NCBI RefSeq assembly: GCF_003363135.1
Contig: NZ_QRBB01000001.1
Location: forward strand, 372,001 to 436,000
Direction of reading: 5' to 3'
Origin: Alteriqipengyuania lutimaris
GTDB lineage: Bacteria > Pseudomonadota > Alphaproteobacteria > Sphingomonadales > Sphingomonadaceae
DNA: 64,000 nucleotides
A model generated the notes under the pieces. That model was not told where the DNA came from and made no database searches. It saw nothing but the letters and a program-made list of their open reading frames with translations. Positions 1-8,873 of this stretch are shown piece after piece. How positions within the stretch are numbered: the first letter of the stretch is position 1; every line of letters begins with the position of its first letter. The position numbers and the translations under genes were made by a program.

Positions 1-1302
1 TGCCGGCTGCGGCTCGAGAGCGTCGGCGGATCGGGCATCGAGGGCCTGCGCGTGAGCTGCTCGGCCGAAGGGTGCGGCGCTTCCGCCTCAATGGCGGGCG
101 CGTTTTCCTCCAAGGGTCTCGAAGGCCACAAATGCTCCGGCCGCCGCCCTTGGCTGACCGACGACCGCGAGCCGTGCACCGCACCGCCGCGAACATTGCA
201 GCGCGGGGCATCCAATCTCTATTTCCCGGTCACTTATTCAACGCTCAGCATCCCGCCCTGGACCGATGCAATCCAGCAGGAACTCAATGCCTATTGGGGC
301 GCGCTGCGCGAATTGAGCTCCGATATGCGAGAGACGATGATCGCCAGCCTGGCTGCGACCAACGCGTCGATGCACAATATGTCCGTCGACGAATATGCGG
401 CGGTGATCCGCGAACGCCTCAAACTGGACGAAGAAACGACGCTTGATACGCTACGCTTTGAAGAGTTCATCCGGCTCGAGCGCGATGCTGAAGGGGGCGA
501 CTTTCAGGTCAAGCAGGAAGCGGTCCCCGAGGAAGTGCAGCCCTATATCGCCAGGTTAGGCCGGGTCGAGCGCCTGCGCGAAGTGCGAGCGCTCACCGGG
601 TTCAAACGCATCTATCAGAACGCATCGGTTGATGAGCCCGGCCGCGGCCGGTTCGGCGACTTGTCGCTTGCCCCTCTGCCGTGGCTTCCCGCAATCGAGG
701 TGCGCGGCGAAGGTATATTTGTCTCGCTCAAAAACGAGGCGATTGATGCCTGGCTCGCCAATCCGGAAATACACGAGCGCGCCCGCTTGGTCGAGGAAGC
801 TCGCGCCGCGGAATACGAGCGCATTCACGAAGATGAGAGCGTGGGTGATCCGATCACGCCGACATTCCTCCTCGTCCACTCGCTCGCCCACGCCGTAATC
901 AAGCGCCTGTCGTTCGAATGCGGCTACGATGTCGCGTCGCTTCGCGAACGGATTTATGTCGGCGACAAACCGCGCATGGCGGGGTTCCTCATCTACACCT
1001 CGACCAGCGATGCCGACGGGACACTCGGCGGTCTGGAGCGTCAGGGACGGGCCGATCGTTTTATTCCGGTTCTCGCTTCGGCAGTGCGCGACGCATTCTG
1101 GTGCTCATCCGACCCGCTGTGCCGGACCGGCGTTTCCAGCCTTTCTGAAAGCATGAACCTTGCGGCCTGCCACAGCTGCCTTCTGCTGCCCGAAACCTGC
1201 TGTGAAGAGGGCAACCGCTATCTCGACCGCTCGATGCTAGTCGGCGACGGCGTGGGCGGGATGAAGGGCTTTTTCGATTCCTTCATCGAAACGGACGGTT
1301 GA
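1..1302 (+). CDS. drmB: DrmB-family protein (DUF1998), 5' end missing
   Basis: The reading frame is open from the first base, so the gene starts left of the window; 433 codons are visible. Codons 20, 25 and 45 are cysteines of a zinc-ribbon-like cluster, followed by GRRPWL and LQRGASNLYFP, which are hallmarks of the DrmB family. The C-terminal third carries the DUF1998 signature: HSLAHAVIKRL, RERIYVG, TSTSDADGTLGGLER, CSSDPLC and a terminal cysteine cluster (CHSC, CCEEGNRYLDR). DrmB is a core DISARM protein that works with the helicase DrmA in anti-phage defence. The usual next gene, drmC (phospholipase D type), is absent; a NERD helicase follows instead. DrmA, if present, would lie outside the window. 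The family call is firm; full DISARM membership is inference. Confidence 0.88.
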   Translation, partial: CRLRLESVGGSGIEGLRVSCSAEGCGASASMAGAFSSKGLEGHKCSGRRPWLTDDREPCTAPPRTLQRGASNLYFPVTYSTLSIPPWTDAIQQELNAYWGALRELSSDMRETMIASLAATNASMHNMSVDEYAAVIRERLKLDEETTLDTLRFEEFIRLERDAEGGDFQVKQEAVPEEVQPYIARLGRVERLREVRALTGFKRIYQNASVDEPGRGRFGDLSLAPLPWLPAIEVRGEGIFVSLKNEAIDAWLANPEIHERARLVEEARAAEYERIHEDESVGDPITPTFLLVHSLAHAVIKRLSFECGYDVASLRERIYVGDKPRMAGFLIYTSTSDADGTLGGLERQGRADRFIPVLASAVRDAFWCSSDPLCRTGVSSLSESMNLAACHSCLLLPETCCEEGNRYLDRSMLVGDGVGGMKGFFDSFIETDG

Positions 1303-1307
1303 GGCCG

Positions 1308-3008
1308 ATGCCTGCGCGGATGATCCCGCCGATGCTCCCGCCCGAGATACGCAGAGATCCGAAGCGCAGCGGCGAAACGGCGGTCTATGACCTGCTCGCG
1401 GAAGATCCGATGCTGACCGGTGCGACGGTATTCTACTCCTGCGAATGGGTCGGGCTGGACGGCGGACTGCTGCGCGACGGTGAAGCCGACTTCGTCATCG
1501 CCCATCCGCAAATTGGTTTTCTCGTGCTTGAGGTCAAAGGCGGCCGCGTCCAGCGACGGGTGGCCGACGGAAAATGGACAACCAAGAACCGCGACAACGA
1601 GGTTTTCGAGATCGAAAACCCTGTGCGTCAGGCGATGAAGTCAAAGAAAATCATTCTCAATGCCCTGAAGGAGCGCTGGCCCGGCAATGCGCCGTGGCTT
1701 TCGGCGAGGCACGGCGTGATCCTGCCCCATTGCAGCAGACCCGCCAATGTCGCACATATGGGCGCAGCCGCTCCGCTTGAAATTTTCGCGTTCCGCGAAG
1801 ACTTGCCCAATCTCGGCGCGCGCCTGCTTCAGATGATGGTTTGGAAACCCGACGGAGAACGGGAGACTTTGGGCGGCCTCGGACCAGCGGGTATCGCCAT
1901 GCTCGAGGACTTTTACGGACGCGACATCGATTTCACACCGCGCCTGTCGTCGGTTATCGACGAATGCGAGGCGGCGATCGAAAGGCTGACTGAGACGCAA
2001 TACCGCTACCTCGATTTCCTCGGAATCACGAAACGCGCGCTTATCCAAGGAGGCGCGGGTACCGGCAAGACCGTCTTGGCGGCGGAGAAAGCGCGGCGCG
2101 CCGCCCGGGCGGATCGGCGGGTTCTCATGCTGTGTTTCAATCGGCCGCTCCTGGTGCAGCTTCGCACCGAGCTTGAAGGCAGCCCCGCCTCGGTCGCGAC
2201 GTTTCACGAATTCTGCGCCCGCATGTGTCTAGAGAAGGGCATTGATCTCAATTCCGAGCGCATGGCTTGCGAGGAGCAGCATTTCTGGTCGGTCCGCCTG
2301 CCCGAACTGCTCACCGACATCGGGCTCGATATCCCGCCGGAGCAATATGATGATCTCATCATCGATGAGGGACAGGACTTCAAGTCGGCCTGGGTCGAAG
2401 CTCTCCGCCTGTTTCTCGACCCCGAGGGCTCACTCTATGTCTTCCGCGACGATTTCCAGAATATTTACAGAGGCGATGATGCGGCCGCGGCAGTGCAGGC
2501 TGAACCGCTTGAGCTGACCGAGAACGTGCGCAACACTCAAGCGATTTTCCGTGCCGGAAGTGTCTTTCGACAAGGCCGCGAACAGACATGCCTCGGGCCG
2601 GAAGGCGCGCCTGTCAGCTGGGTGCCGTGCAACAAGGACCAGACCCTTCGAATAGTCGAAAGGGAATTGGGCCGACTGCTGACGGCGGACGACATCGCGC
2701 CTGGCGATATTGCCGTGCTGTGTGGCTGCGGTGCCGAAATGTCGGTCCTTCGGAAGGCGCCGACCTTGGCGGGGCGGCATTGGACCCCTGCCGACGAGCC
2801 TGCCGAAGATCGAATCATTGTTGACAGCATCATGCGGTTCAAAGGTCTTGATCGGCCGGTCGTAATCCTCTGCGAAATTGAGGAGATCGATGCGGAAGTC
2901 GCCTATGTCGGCCTGACGCGTGCCAAGAGCCATCTCATCGTAATCGGCGATGAAGCGACTGTAGACCGGCTGGGCCGCAATGACGCCGCAAAAGCAGCAT
3001 TGATCTAG
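1308..3008 (+). CDS. NERD-domain SF1 (UvrD-like) helicase
   Basis: About 566 residues. The N-terminal region (roughly 15-130) is a NERD nuclease-related domain, seen in GEADFVIAHP and LVLEVKGG. The central part is an SF1 ATPase: Walker A GGAGTGKT near residue 250, Walker B IIDEGQD near residue 350, and a C-terminal UvrD-like block with FKGLDRPVVIL and YVGLTRAKSHL. The gene begins 5 bases after the drmB stop, so the two are almost certainly co-transcribed. A TTG at 1299 overlaps the drmB stop and ATGs at 1320 and 1332 are alternatives; ATG 1308 is preferred because MPARMIP resembles family starts. NERD helicases occur in several defence loci. A role as effector or helper for DrmB is inferred from position only. 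Confidence 0.85.
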   Translation: MPARMIPPMLPPEIRRDPKRSGETAVYDLLAEDPMLTGATVFYSCEWVGLDGGLLRDGEADFVIAHPQIGFLVLEVKGGRVQRRVADGKWTTKNRDNEVFEIENPVRQAMKSKKIILNALKERWPGNAPWLSARHGVILPHCSRPANVAHMGAAAPLEIFAFREDLPNLGARLLQMMVWKPDGERETLGGLGPAGIAMLEDFYGRDIDFTPRLSSVIDECEAAIERLTETQYRYLDFLGITKRALIQGGAGTGKTVLAAEKARRAARADRRVLMLCFNRPLLVQLRTELEGSPASVATFHEFCARMCLEKGIDLNSERMACEEQHFWSVRLPELLTDIGLDIPPEQYDDLIIDEGQDFKSAWVEALRLFLDPEGSLYVFRDDFQNIYRGDDAAAAVQAEPLELTENVRNTQAIFRAGSVFRQGREQTCLGPEGAPVSWVPCNKDQTLRIVERELGRLLTADDIAPGDIAVLCGCGAEMSVLRKAPTLAGRHWTPADEPAEDRIIVDSIMRFKGLDRPVVILCEIEEIDAEVAYVGLTRAKSHLIVIGDEATVDRLGRNDAAKAALI

Positions 3009-3042
3009 ATCAGCAACACGCGTTGCTTGATACTGCTTAGAC

Positions 3043-3462
3043 TTACTCCGGATTGTTTCGCTCAAGAATGTCGCGCAGGCGCTCACTGAGCGTTTCAGCA
3101 TCTCGCGTTTCGCATTCCCAGATCACTTCAGGCTGCCACCCGGCCGCGCGCAGAGCTGCTGCCTGCTCGGCATCGCGTTCAACCGTTCGTGCGAACTTCG
3201 ATTCCCAGAATTCCCTCCGCGTTGAGGGCATGGATGCGCGAGGACAATTTTCGTGACGGTGCCAGAAGCAGCCGTGCACGAAGATCGCCAGGCGGTTCTT
3301 GGCGAGCACGATATCGGGTTTGCCCGGAAGGTCCTTGCGGTGCAGGCGGAAGCGTCTGCCGAGTGTGTGCAGCGCGTGCCTAACCGTCAGTTCCGGTCCG
3401 GTGTCCTTGCCCTTGACGCGACGCATGTTCTCGCTGCGCCGCTCCGGATCGAGATGGTCCAC
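3043..3462 (-). CDS. vsr: Very short patch repair (Vsr) mismatch endonuclease
   Basis: 139 residues, the usual length for Vsr. The sequence opens with DPERRSENMRRVKGKDT, a family hallmark, and carries KPDIVL (catalytic Asp near residue 50) and FVHGCFWHRHENCP with the active-site and zinc-binding residues. Vsr nicks at T:G mismatches left by deamination of 5-methylcytosine, so it protects the host from the mutagenic cost of the methyltransferase two genes upstream. The start is a GTG at 3462, 2 bases after the HNH stop; an open frame extends further upstream through the HNH gene but lacks family similarity there. Third gene of the methyltransferase-HNH-Vsr operon. Confidence 0.92.
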   Translation of the reverse strand: MDHLDPERRSENMRRVKGKDTGPELTVRHALHTLGRRFRLHRKDLPGKPDIVLAKNRLAIFVHGCFWHRHENCPRASMPSTRREFWESKFARTVERDAEQAAALRAAGWQPEVIWECETRDAETLSERLRDILERNNPE

Positions 3463-3464
3463 AG

Positions 3465-4433
3465 CTAGAGTTCCAGCGTCAGGCGACCTGCGTGGACCTG
3501 GTCGTGATGGACGTTGCACAGCGTGACGAGATTCTCGCTGCTGTTTTCGCCTTTGTCCGCATGCGCCTTGAGATGGTGCAGTTCGAGGAATTTGCGCGGA
3601 TCGTCCGGATTGAGCTGGTCGCGCGTCCATCCGCAGACCTTGCAGGCGAAGTTGTCGCGGATCAGGACTTCGACGCGTACGTCGTCGGGGATGCGCCGAT
3701 CATGTTCGGGCGCCTGCTTGTCTTCTTCGAGAATATAAGTTCCGACCGGGAGATCCGACCGGCCCTGCATCCTGGTATAGATCGGCCAGCCGTCTTCGGT
3801 CCTCAGCTCGCGCATTCGTCGCGCCCATTCGCTCTTGTCGCCCGCGAGGTAACGCAGCTCCTCGATCGATACTGCGCTGCCGACATTTGCCCGCATATAT
3901 TCGAGCAGCCGCGCTTTTACCGACAGCCGCTTCTTGCGGATGGTGTTCAACACGTTCCAACGCAGCGCGGCTTCGCGGTCCTGTTCCGGACTGATCAGCA
4001 CATATTGGTCGGGCCGCAACGACAGCGGATCGGCGCCAAGCGCGGCCTCAAGTTCTTCGACCGTCTCGGGCTCATCTTCGGCCAGATCCTTGAACGTCAC
4101 GCCGCTGCAGATCGACCAGCCGAACTGCACCCTCAGTTCGCGCAGGCGGCGCGCCCATTCGCCGATCCCGGCGACGACCAGCAGTTCGTCCCCCTCAATC
4201 ACCTGCAGCGGATAGCGCTGCAGATAAACGAGAATACGTTCGCGCGCCGAAGAGGCCAGTTCGGGCGGGATGAGCGATTTGCCCAGATCGCGCACGGCGT
4301 GGAAGGCGGGGATCAGGCTGCGCACCTGCGCGCGCAGATCGTCGTCATCGATGCGCTCGAGAAATGTGTCGAGCAGATGCTTGATCTCATCGACAGTGCG
4401 CGCCGGGTCATGCACGGCTGTGCGCCTCGCCAT
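3465..4433 (-). CDS. HNH endonuclease, probable type II restriction enzyme
   Basis: 322 residues. The C-terminus (about 255-320) is an HNH nuclease: CKVCGW zinc-type knuckle, LELHHLKAH and LVTLCNVHHDQVH. Two related modules precede it, each with an EWARR-[LM]RELR core followed by GW and I; they look like a duplicated winged-helix DNA-reading domain. The gene starts 2 bases after the methyltransferase stop and ends 2 bases before vsr. This layout, methylase, HNH nuclease and Vsr in one operon, is typical of a type II restriction-modification system. The recognition sequence cannot be read from the protein. An alternative is a modification-dependent nuclease, but the linked methylase makes that less likely. 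Confidence 0.86.
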   Translation of the reverse strand: MARRTAVHDPARTVDEIKHLLDTFLERIDDDDLRAQVRSLIPAFHAVRDLGKSLIPPELASSARERILVYLQRYPLQVIEGDELLVVAGIGEWARRLRELRVQFGWSICSGVTFKDLAEDEPETVEELEAALGADPLSLRPDQYVLISPEQDREAALRWNVLNTIRKKRLSVKARLLEYMRANVGSAVSIEELRYLAGDKSEWARRMRELRTEDGWPIYTRMQGRSDLPVGTYILEEDKQAPEHDRRIPDDVRVEVLIRDNFACKVCGWTRDQLNPDDPRKFLELHHLKAHADKGENSSENLVTLCNVHHDQVHAGRLTLEL

Positions 4434-4435
4434 AG

Positions 4436-5500
4436 TCAGGCGGACTTGGCCATTGGCGCCAGAAGATCCGCAACCATCCGCGCGATCGACCCCGCCAGCG
4501 CAGGCGGAACGGCATTGCCGATCTGGCGGGCGATTCCGACCTTGCTGCCGCAGAATTTGAAATCATCGGGGAAGCCCATCAGTCTCGCTGCCTCCCGATG
4601 AGTGATCGGGCGATGCTGCGTCGGATGCAGGTAGCGACCCTTTTCGGGTTTGTAGAACTCGGTGCGGATCGTGACCGAAGGTCTGTCCCACCAAAGCCGC
4701 CCGAACAGGTCGGTGCCGCCTGAGGTCTTCCTGATCCAGCAGTTCGGCGTGATCTCGGGCGCGTTGCGCTGCAGGTCGAAACGATTGCCGCCCGGCGGAA
4801 CGGCCTTGTAACGGGCGATGCTCTTCTCGGTGGGATTGCGGCGGATATGCAGGTCGAGCGGCGCTTCGCCCTTAATCTCGGTTCGGCGCGGCCGCGGCAG
4901 ATCGCCAATCGCGTCGCGCACGGTCAGCCAATGGGGTAGGTTACTGTCACTGCCCGGTTCAGCATGCGAGCGCAACGGAGGGAACTGCGGTTGCCAAGCG
5001 CCCGGCTTCCATCCGATGACGATAGTCCGGCGGCGGGTCTGCGGCGCACCAAAATCCGCAGCGTTGAGAATGGCGGCGTCGGTCCGGAAGCCGTCAGATT
5101 CTGCTCGTGCGCGGATGTCATCGAGCTCGGGCGAGCGAAAAAGTTCGGCGACGTTCTCCATAATGAAAACGCGCGCACCCGAGCGGGCGGCGACATCGAG
5201 GAATGGCTCCCACAAAGCGCGACGCGCATCACCGTCGCGCTTTTTGTTCAGCAGGCTGAACCCTTGGCAAGGCGGCCCGCCTATTACGACGTCAGCCTGC
5301 GGAATGTCCGCATCGAGCAGCCATGTTTCAATGTTTCCGCAAACGGCTTCGCCTGAGAAATTGGCTTGATGCGTTGCGATTGCCGCCTCGTCATTATCGA
5401 CAGCAAGTACACACTCGAAACGGCCGCAAAAGCGCGGATCGACGAACCCGAGCGACATTCCGCCAGCACCACTGAATAAGTCGATCACTTTCCACGCCAT
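4436..5500 (-). CDS. DNA (cytosine-5-)-methyltransferase
   Basis: 354 residues with the ordered C5-methyltransferase motifs: LFSGAGGMSLGF (motif I), GGPPCQGFS with catalytic Cys78 (motif IV), MENV at about 114-117 (motif VI), QTRRR near 154-158 (motif VIII) and GNAVPP near the end (motif X). The target-recognition region lies between about 215 and 300. It is first in a three-gene operon with the HNH nuclease and Vsr. An AGAAGG ribosome site lies 9 bases before the ATG and a promoter is visible further upstream. It most likely protects the host from the HNH enzyme. Because DrmB converges from the left, it could also serve as a DISARM class 2 type methylase; the sequence does not decide. Confidence 0.94.
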   Translation of the reverse strand: MAWKVIDLFSGAGGMSLGFVDPRFCGRFECVLAVDNDEAAIATHQANFSGEAVCGNIETWLLDADIPQADVVIGGPPCQGFSLLNKKRDGDARRALWEPFLDVAARSGARVFIMENVAELFRSPELDDIRARAESDGFRTDAAILNAADFGAPQTRRRTIVIGWKPGAWQPQFPPLRSHAEPGSDSNLPHWLTVRDAIGDLPRPRRTEIKGEAPLDLHIRRNPTEKSIARYKAVPPGGNRFDLQRNAPEITPNCWIRKTSGGTDLFGRLWWDRPSVTIRTEFYKPEKGRYLHPTQHRPITHREAARLMGFPDDFKFCGSKVGIARQIGNAVPPALAGSIARMVADLLAPMAKSA

Positions 5501-5563
5501 AGCTCAAACCTTCTGTCATGTTGGATTCCGGCGCGCAACGGCACTCGGCAAGAACATAAATAG

Positions 5564-7275: not shown

Positions 7276-8550
7276 CTAACCTTGGTAGCGCTGCCGCCGG
7301 CTTGCCAGGTCGACCACGTTTCCAGCGGCGTCGAGCGACGAACCGCCATATTGAATGACCTCACCCCCATCTCGAAGTTGGTCGAGGTAAGTGCTCCACC
7401 ATTGGTGCATGTCGACCCGTTCCTGCCAGTAGCTTGCGCGGTTGTAGGTTCCGCGCACAGCGTTCCGATCGGTATGCGCGAGCGACCGTTCGATTGCGTC
7501 TGGATTGAACTTGCCACTTTCATTGAGCAGCGTGGATGCAGTCGAACGCCAGCCGTGCGAAGTCATCTCGTCCTTTGAGTAGCCCATTCTACGCAGCGCT
7601 TGGTTCATGGTGTTCTCACTCATTGGTCGGCGCCGTGTGTGAAAGGCTTCGAATGCGTAGCCGTCAGGACCGGTCAGCTCATAGAGTTCGCGTAGATATG
7701 CGATCACTTGCCGCGTGAGGGGCACCATATGGGGTTTGCGCATCTTCATTCGCTCAGCTGGAATACGCCATTCCGCCTTTTCGAAGTTGAACTCGTCCCA
7801 TGTTGCCATGCGCAACTCTCCAGGACGGGCCATGACATGCGGTAGGATCTGCAGAGCGAGGCGCGTTATTAGGTGACCGTCGTATTCGTCGATCGCGCGA
7901 AGCAGGTCCGCGACCTGCTCGGGTTTCTCAAGCGCCGCGTGATGCTTCGGCTTAGGGCTCTTTAAGGCTCCCTTGAGGACGGCAGCCGGATCGTTTTCAG
8001 CCCGTAATGTGGCAACCGCGTAGCGAAAAACGCGACTCACAAAAGAGCGACATCGCCTCGCCGTTTCGAACTTGCCATGGGCTTCGATGCGTCGAAGGGC
8101 GGCAAGCACGTCGGCAGGCCGGATCTGGCCAACAGGAAGCGGATGCAGCGGCTTGAGCTCGTCGAGATACCAAAGGGCCTTCTTGATGGTCTGTTGCGAT
8201 AGCTCCTCATCCACCATCTTCTTTTCAATAAATTCGCGCGCTACCGATACGAAGGTGGTCTCTGCAGCGAGCGCCGCAACCAATTTGGCTTGTCGACGCT
8301 CAATCGCAGGATCCTTCCCTGCAGCGACGAGTGCACGCGCCTCATCACGAAACTTGCGAGCCTCCGCGAGCGAGACATCCGGATAGCGGCCAAGAGATTG
8401 TCGCTTTTCGACGCCGTGAAGACGGTATTTGACCCGCCATAGTTTCGAGCCATTGGGCATCACCTCGATGTAGAGCCCGCGCTCGTCAGCACGCTTATAG
8501 GGTTTCTCTGTAGGTTTGAGATTGCGCAAGGCGATATCGGTGAAGGCCAA
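7276..8550 (-). CDS. P4-type tyrosine integrase
   Basis: 424 residues. The N-terminus (about 1-90) is the DUF4102 arm-binding domain (LTD-like start, KLWRVKYR, SLGRYPDVSLAEAR). The catalytic domain has the tyrosine recombinase set: Arg242 in MARPGELR, His332 and Arg335 in HGWR, His359 in LAHTD and Tyr369 in GTYNR. Enzymes of this class insert islands at the 3' end of tRNA genes, and a tRNA-Leu whose 3' end faces this gene lies 237 bases away. The gene reads away from the tRNA into the island, with candidate arm sites in between. It appears intact. Confidence 0.95.
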   Translation of the reverse strand: MAFTDIALRNLKPTEKPYKRADERGLYIEVMPNGSKLWRVKYRLHGVEKRQSLGRYPDVSLAEARKFRDEARALVAAGKDPAIERRQAKLVAALAAETTFVSVAREFIEKKMVDEELSQQTIKKALWYLDELKPLHPLPVGQIRPADVLAALRRIEAHGKFETARRCRSFVSRVFRYAVATLRAENDPAAVLKGALKSPKPKHHAALEKPEQVADLLRAIDEYDGHLITRLALQILPHVMARPGELRMATWDEFNFEKAEWRIPAERMKMRKPHMVPLTRQVIAYLRELYELTGPDGYAFEAFHTRRRPMSENTMNQALRRMGYSKDEMTSHGWRSTASTLLNESGKFNPDAIERSLAHTDRNAVRGTYNRASYWQERVDMHQWWSTYLDQLRDGGEVIQYGGSSLDAAGNVVDLASRRQRYQG

Positions 8551-8786: not shown

Positions 8787-8873
8787 TGGTGCCCAGAAGA
8801 GGACTCGAACCTCCACGACCTTGCGATCGCCGCCACCTGAAGACGGTGCGTCTACCAATTCCGCCATCTGGGC
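8787..8873 (-). tRNA. tRNA-Leu(CAG)
   Basis: 87 bases on the minus strand with the CCA tail encoded. The acceptor stem GCCCAGA pairs with TCTGGGC. The anticodon loop TTCAGGT is closed by CCGTC/GGCGG and gives anticodon CAG, reading CUG leucine codons. The T-arm has GGTTCGAGTCC. A long variable arm is present, as expected for tRNA-Leu. Its 3' end faces the integrase, so it is the likely attachment site of the island, and the gene is intact after integration. Confidence 0.95.

Follow-up and report, generated by a model that had tools for sequence, protein, structure and literature searches.

A DISARM-like operon of Alteriqipengyuania lutimaris with a predicted NERD helicase-nuclease in the position of DrmC

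The genome of Alteriqipengyuania lutimaris (G000) carries a four-gene operon related to DISARM (defence island system associated with restriction–modification), which reaches into the left end of the 64 000-nucleotide stretch analysed here (the window, C1:372001-436000). On the + strand it encodes, in this order, a superfamily 1 (SF1) helicase of TerB-UvrD type, DrmA, DrmB and a second SF1 helicase that bears a NERD nuclease domain (NERD-SF1). We consider it fairly probable, from the sequences, that this is a DISARM-like anti-phage system in which a NERD-SF1 helicase-nuclease follows drmB instead of the phospholipase D (PLD) protein DrmC, and in which a further SF1 helicase precedes drmA; its defence role is predicted. 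Window position 1 falls within drmB, and the remainder of the operon lies to its left, outside the window. The initial annotation of the window had seen DrmB next to a NERD UvrD-like helicase, had proposed the pair as a module and had advised extending the sequence leftwards in search of drmA and other subunits. This extension revealed drmA and the TerB-UvrD helicase directly upstream: the adjacency is real, and the module comprises four genes (SF1-DrmA-DrmB-NERD) rather than two.

The operon is tight, with junctions of −28, −4 and −4 nt (nucleotides), i.e. its genes overlap. The first gene (C1:366054-368273, or L003:54-2273, where the position in locus L003 is the window position plus 6000) encodes a 739-residue helicase with an N-terminal TerB domain (Pfam UvrD-helicase 65.7 bits, TerB 35.3 bits) and has syntenic homologues in 18 further loci; a structure model of this protein (pLDDT, predicted local distance difference test, 61) was discarded. 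DrmA (1063 residues, + strand, C1:368246-371437, L003:2246-5437) scores 713 bits with the PADLOC DrmA model. DrmB (622 residues, + strand, C1:371434-373302, L003:5434-7302), the DUF1998 component of DISARM, reaches 450.7 bits with NCBIfam DrmB_fam (cut-off 240). Its gene starts 567 bases before the window opens, and the part within the window (1..1302) amounts to 433 codons with an open 5′ side; the 622 codons are intact, which rules out the decayed fragment that the initial annotation had allowed for. In the PDB, DrmA and DrmB match no chains except the DrmA and DrmB of entries 7s9v/7s9w, presumably the structure of Serratia DrmAB described in PMC9142583.

As had been noted from the window, no drmC follows drmB: none was found near the operon with PADLOC and Pfam (ORFs, open reading frames, between window positions 5501 and 7275 were not scanned singly), nor elsewhere in the island, and the four genome-wide PLDc_2 matches lie at 1.16 and 1.98 Mb, with the operon at 0.37 Mb. 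The PADLOC scan of the island comprised 10 proteins, with the best 25 matches considered for two of them (P0001 and P0007) and further small ORFs outside the scan; DrmC, the PLD nuclease, DrmD and DrmE are absent from the matches listed. Because DrmC is missing, we file the operon as DISARM-like and not as DISARM.

The protein in the place of DrmC is encoded at 1299..3008 (+ strand) and comprises 569 residues from TTG 1299 or 566 from ATG 1308; the junction with drmB is a 4-nt overlap in the first case and, in the second, the gap of 5 bases described in the initial annotation. It matches Pfam NERD (34.4 bits, cut-off 22.1) and UvrD-helicase (27.7 bits, cut-off 23), and its best PADLOC models are RTasNERD-Hel (186.6 bits), a DRT-associated protein (DRT: defence-associated reverse transcriptase), and C3a187 (112.2 bits), a NERD+UvrD protein; unlike the setting of RTasNERD-Hel, no reverse transcriptase was recognized among the 10 proteins scanned here. 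Residues E62, D64, E78 and K80 are invariant in two alignments of homologues (11 and 7 sequences, the latter adding L089, L090, L096, L097 and L098) and are the expected PD-(D/E)xK catalytic residues of the NERD domain. A structure model of the protein includes helix 21-35, strands 43-50, 61-69 and 73-79, helix 108-126 and strand 136-142, the order of helices and strands expected of a PD-(D/E)xK nuclease fold. The helicase half resembles SF1 helicases of the PDB; a fold search with the model returned Schlafen 11/14, Upf1, UvrD and Dna2 with query template modelling (TM) scores of 0.29 to 0.36, matches that we read only as the predicted SF1 helicase core.

The arrangement is not confined to this genome, a possibility that the initial annotation had raised. 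We mapped 19 SF1-DrmA-DrmB loci (L003, L016-L019, L035-L038, L040, L070, L078, L088, L090, L091, L097, L112-L114), and in 14 of them, from several genera, NERD-SF1 directly follows drmB (Erythrobacter, Rhizobium, Shinella, Azospirillum and predicted viral contigs are among them). The slot behind drmB has other occupants as well. In L088 it holds a PLD protein (PADLOC DrmC 102.4 bits, Pfam PLDc_2 59.1 bits), and this locus falls inside the DrmAB clade that most of the others form, so that NERD-SF1 is a plausible positional substitute for DrmC; the proposal of a DISARM variant whose drmC position is taken by a NERD helicase thus fits what we found. The slot of L040 contains an SNF2-type helicase and that of L091 a 418-residue protein with no Pfam or PADLOC match; in L112 an AIPR protein lies 523 nt from drmB. 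In L113 (11522-14380) a 952-residue DrmB with a C-terminal HATPase domain stands in an operon lacking NERD, and a transposase-like gene comes after it. That we are dealing with an ordinary DISARM locus minus drmC, beside whose drmB a NERD helicase has come to lie by accident, is highly improbable: published work describes drmC as often missing (PMC9142583), and in four class-1-like loci (L021, L023, L046 and L075) drmB is not directly followed by a gene on its strand, but the same order recurs in 14 loci whose DrmB identity to that of L003 goes down to 35-48%, a conservation that already contradicts an accident. We regard the conserved four-gene operon as probably anti-phage.

In a tree of DrmA+DrmB from 43 loci (a quick tree, without bootstrap), 17 of the 19 SF1 loci form one clade (Shimodaira–Hasegawa-like approximate likelihood ratio test, SH-aLRT, 99), L040 and L097 being unresolved. 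Beside it, under a midpoint root and with a joining branch of 89, stands a clade of 11 loci (support 100) that we label 'class-1-like' from their gene order and clade; DrmC is confirmed by PADLOC in the slot of four of these (L020, L076, L082 and L083), and the records of two (L045 and L046) annotate drmD or a DNA methylase. This tree, the second of two, omits L096, which had a very long branch in the first, and the partial, broken or short L007, L024, L044, L089 and L104; L095 is the contig of L090, L098 has NERD without DrmAB, and L099 and L100 are outside the mapped set. An acidic loop of 37 residues in DrmA coincides in part with the position of the trigger loop published for DrmA. A difference in trigger-loop length between the groups was considered and dropped: the motif pattern fitted only 4 of the 19 SF1 loci (37 residues in all four, three of which are near copies) and 5 of the 11 class-1-like loci (37 to 64 residues), so we claim none. 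We may wonder whether these loci form a separate DISARM-like class, with an SF1-DrmA-DrmB core, an exchangeable effector slot (NERD-SF1, PLD, DrmB-HATPase fusion, SNF2-type helicase or unknown protein) and exchangeable C5 methylation cassettes, in which detector, effector and self-mark would evolve as plug-in parts; we hold this wider proposal tentatively, at a little less than an even chance.

A DrmB search of a sample of the order gave matches in 10 of 296 genomes: all four genes are in order in G000, G094, G295 and G206, a 3.7 kb contig of G036 runs from the last part of DrmA through DrmB into the first part of NERD, three genomes (G065, G172 and G039) have DrmAB amid class-1-like surroundings, drmA and drmB of G220 are flanked by NERD in front and a short SF1 behind, and G225 has a DrmB fragment. 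DrmA searches matched 8 of 385 genomes in a class sample and 11 of 398 in a phylum sample, each with one genome beyond G000 in which the four-gene form occurs (G997 and G561, respectively). In G997 an insert of about 1.9 kb with two ORFs splits drmB (L070:7960-11922, contig C43), the other three genes being open. In the phylum sample, the same set of genomes for both searches, NERD-SF1 (E ≤ 1e-20) was found in 10 genomes, DrmA (E ≤ 1e-60) in 11 and both in three, compared with about 0.3 expected, i.e. the two co-occur more often than by chance; the three include G000 itself, and the genes are adjacent in all three, with NERD behind drmB in G000 and G561 and before drmA in G572. At E ≤ 1e-120, the order of G561 yielded 4 of 254 genomes, all four with the SF1-DrmA-DrmB core and two with NERD, and the order of G505 yielded 3 of 252, none with this core. 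The DrmA/DrmB matches are therefore patchy, with 3 to 11 genomes per sample of 252 to 398 (at differing E-value limits and with the centre genomes included).

Copies were also found outside chromosomal records. Among 61 plasmid records with DrmA, the best seven, several of them near copies, are also the best seven for NERD-SF1 (five from Rhizobium, one each from Shinella and Azospirillum). Eight of the 61 were opened (H1, H4, H6, H7, H8, H9, H26 and H28), and all four of the opened records that belong to the best seven carry the four genes in order. None of H48 to H51, four of the eight NERD plasmid records ranked below the first seven, has an intact SF1-DrmA-DrmB core; L044 has DrmA and DrmB in broken pieces. 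The predicted viral contigs L090 and L097 contain all four genes, L089 has DrmB-NERD at the contig end, and L088 and L091 have the core without NERD. DrmA had no match in GenBank phages at 1e-10, and a scan of genome contigs with a single DrmB protein gave one locus only, L016. That the operon serves in DNA-end repair or recombination and not in defence is very unlikely. Such a role would suit four genes that are all helicases or helicase partners, with UvrD, PcrA and Dna2 among their PDB relatives; against it stand the patchiness of DrmA and DrmB, the copies on plasmids and beside integrase-like ORFs, and the position of the DrmAB clade next to DISARM loci in the tree.

Facing the operon, on the − strand, lies a cassette of three genes. 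The first encodes a C5-cytosine DNA methyltransferase of 354 residues (4436..5500, Pfam DNA_methylase 192.1 bits) and the second an HNH nuclease of 322 residues (3465..4433, Pfam HNH 25.7 bits, cut-off 21.4; PADLOC REase_II 36.4 bits) that is probably the restriction enzyme of the cassette, on the strength of these matches. The third is vsr, for a very short patch repair endonuclease (3043..3462, TIGR00632 134.9 bits, cut-off 97.85; Pfam 104.7 bits); its longest ORF begins at 3630, and the DNA, in our reading, favours a start at GTG 3462, just past the HNH stop at 3465. The initial annotation had recognized all three, rightly, and had likened the methylase to the modification enzyme of class 2 DISARM; a C5 methylase is indeed present, yet it is nearer to PADLOC DruM2 (its best model, 306.6 bits) than to DrmMII (160.7 bits). 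The family matches and the recurrence of the trio on two plasmids (see below) make this a type II restriction–modification (R-M) unit with Vsr, i.e. C5 methylase, restriction endonuclease and Vsr, with a putative restriction role for the HNH protein.

A comparison of L003 with L016 (Erythrobacter sp.) illustrates how such a cassette may be exchanged. The four operon proteins are 86-96% identical, and the DNA is 89.5% identical over a stretch that opens close to the beginning of the first gene and ends about 30 nt past the vsr start; beyond this point L016 has another methylase (32% identity), and no homologue of the HNH protein was found there. L018 and L036 combine the methylase with Vsr, an AAA protein and a nuclease of DUF2357/PD-(D/E)xK type. 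A C5 methylase occurs in 14 of the 19 SF1 loci, compared with 5/7 loci with NERD upstream of drmA, 1/4 with a short SF1 after drmB, 2/2 others and 2/11 class-1-like ones. The corresponding counts for Vsr are 10/19, 1/7, 0/4, 0/2 and 1/11, that is, 10 of the 19 SF1 loci against 2 of the 24 remaining DrmAB loci, and NERD fills the slot in all 10 SF1 loci that have Vsr. The difference in Vsr between SF1 and class-1-like loci (Fisher p = 0.023) is weak because the loci are related. Except in the class-1-like group, DrmAB loci therefore often have a C5 methylase, and Vsr mainly accompanies the SF1-DrmA-DrmB-NERD operon. We read the converging set as a separable and exchangeable type II R-M cassette with Vsr, yet one of a kind that is usually present.

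Several findings weigh against a DISARM-like system that comprises both the operon and the methylase. DrmA reaches 887.9 bits with NCBIfam DISARM_DrmAS, below the cut-off of 950; the structure model of NERD-SF1 is only moderate (pLDDT 72, predicted TM score 0.44); the NERD-SF1 family is wider than the operon, 7 of the 10 genomes that carry it in the phylum sample having no DrmA match; NERD is missing from the slot of five of the 19 SF1 loci; and many of the mapped loci are closely related to each other. The C5 methylase is not specific to the clade, since one is present in 8 of the 13 DrmAB loci outside both the SF1-type and the class-1-like group. The low count among class-1-like loci is partly expected, given the adenine methylase of class 1 DISARM. 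Five of the 19 SF1 loci lack a methylase in the fetched DNA (the record of one, L035, annotates dcm about 6.5 kb upstream). Finally, the methylase, HNH and Vsr trio is also found on plasmids of Pandoraea oxalativorans (where HNH and Vsr share one reading frame) and Sphingomonas parapaucimobilis, with no drmAB within the 13 kb viewed. The last two points, together with the change of methylase between L003 and L016, would be expected if two independent systems share the island, namely a four-gene helicase operon with its own self/non-self discrimination and an ordinary type II R-M system (C5 methylase and HNH) with Vsr. The initial annotation had offered this too, and the separability of the cassette makes it partly right. 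As a full account we find it rather unlikely, given that most SF1 loci have some C5 methylase, that vsr was kept with the operon where the methylase differed, and that the Sphingomonas plasmid carries a class 1 DISARM (drmD, methylase, drmA and a DUF1998 gene) elsewhere on the circle.

For the DISARM-like system that we favour, we infer a defence function, the formation of a complex, a DNA substrate, a dependence on methylation and a link between operon and cassette, which could be combined as follows. DrmAB would load onto DNA ends or 5′ single-stranded overhangs, by analogy with Serratia DrmAB (PMC9142583), both SF1 motors would unwind the DNA and the NERD domain of the last helicase would degrade it. 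The adjoining C5 methylase would mark self DNA, the HNH enzyme would cut unmarked sites, thereby also creating ends for the helicases, and Vsr would repair the T:G mismatches that arise from deaminated 5-methylcytosine. In that study, Serratia DrmAB binds 5′-overhang and single-stranded DNA under the restraint of the trigger loop, and shows less ATPase activity when the DNA is methylated; DrmC proved dispensable and was not co-purified with DrmAB, and the nuclease of DISARM is left unresolved (PMC9142583). A lineage with a helicase-nuclease in the DrmC slot and a close relative with a PLD protein there would allow a direct exchange experiment on the finishing nuclease of DISARM. Likewise, near-identical operons beside different methylases are natural variants for asking whether DrmAB reads the methyl mark.

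We found no description of the SF1-DrmA-DrmB-NERD arrangement in the accessible literature, including PMC11090510, PMC12458937, PMC10270631, PMC5704561 and PMC7251935, supplements being outside the search and an unlisted mention being possible; nor was anything relevant found on PLuB, a helicase family name among our weak matches, in the papers listed for it (10 of 26). The closest relative is DISARM itself (drmA-drmB-drmC with drmMI/drmD or drmMII/drmE), which shares with our operon DrmA and DrmB, the tight operon, a linked DNA methylase and an acidic loop at the trigger-loop position, but the operon here has an SF1 helicase in front, NERD-SF1 behind and a DrmA under the NCBIfam cut-off. Branches of McrBC are associated with a DISARM-like system and DNA methyltransferases, the description being deferred to a later paper (PMC11090510); these cassettes, named again in PMC12458937, link YprA/DUF1998 to McrB/McrC-type restriction genes, which recalls the AAA protein and DUF2357 nuclease of L018 and L036, whereas the legend lists YprA, DUF1998, SWI2/SNF2 and PglX, and neither an SF1 helicase nor NERD (PMC11090510). 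ARMADA type II combines a YprA-type helicase with a UvrD/GajB-like helicase and a methylase, but its helicase is BrxHII-like, its methylase PglX-like and its YprA homologue a fusion with a Vsr-type nuclease, with no split DrmA/DrmB and no NERD in the text accessible (PMC12458937). TALON likewise joins a YprA-type helicase to a NERD-type nuclease; it differs in its TPR-CSD and TBP genes, its occurrence in Bacillati and its helicase fused to RNase H-fold domains, with no SF1 helicase named there (PMC12458937). UvrD-Cas4 fusions with Dcm and Vsr also link an SF1 helicase and a PD-(D/E)xK-type nuclease to dcm and vsr, although the nuclease is of Cas4 type and no DrmAB link is described in that part of the paper, which also reports a separate Cas4-like nuclease linked to a YprA-like helicase (PMC5704561). 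With Druantia type II the locus shares the affinity of its methylase for DruM2, but the helicase here is split into DrmA and DrmB, separate genes and not the single YprA–DUF1998 chain of ARMADA and Druantia, and no DruF, DruG or PglX-like protein is among the matches listed for the 10 proteins.

Two other architectures fall in a different part of the tree (support 98) and are excluded from the counts of SF1 loci. In the first, NERD-SF1 lies upstream of drmA (L071, L072, L073, L081, L094, L022 and L115); a large protein of about 850 to 1800 residues precedes it in L071, L072, L073, L081 and L094, and the five loci of this group with a nearby C5 methylase are L071, L072, L073, L081 and L022. The second has a short SF1 helicase after drmB (L039, L074, L079 and L116). 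Short SF1 helicases of 361-505 residues directly follow drmB in these four and in L022 and L115, with no NERD match in Pfam for L022 and L079, the only two scanned. A protein of about 500 residues comes next in all but L039; that of L022, the only one scanned, has no Pfam or PADLOC match. NERD-SF1 also lies right behind a very large protein, with no DrmB, in L042 (7040-13602; 1618 residues, annotated DUF3883) and L043 (3840-11719; 2052 residues), possibly another NERD-SF1 defence unit. On a Tsukamurella plasmid, the gene for a RelA/SpoT-domain protein (L040:5357-6769) separates the SF1-DrmA-DrmB operon from the C5 methylase. In L035 (595-6488) and L113 (188-6088), the SF1 gene has upstream of it a divergent pair of genes for proteins of about 1000 residues, one an SNF2/DEAD-type helicase (that of L035 is closest to the PADLOC models DpdE and BrxH), and pairs of similar size occur in L078 and L112 (divergent) and in L037 (in the operon direction).

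Further along the window, an integrase-like ORF of 424 residues (7276..8550, − strand), named by reading and with relatives 50% and 41% identical in L016 and L017, lies beside a tRNA-Leu(cag) gene (8787..8873, − strand), a probable mobile-element context in which the tRNA gene is likely the right edge of the island. No left attachment (att) repeat of the tRNA gene, as a shared run of at least 13 bases, was found within 100 kb leftwards, so the left edge is not fixed. Finally, genes for DUF6615, HNH_2 and HNH proteins lie left of the operon, outside the window (L002:10762-13875), and are likely to be more defence genes of the island.

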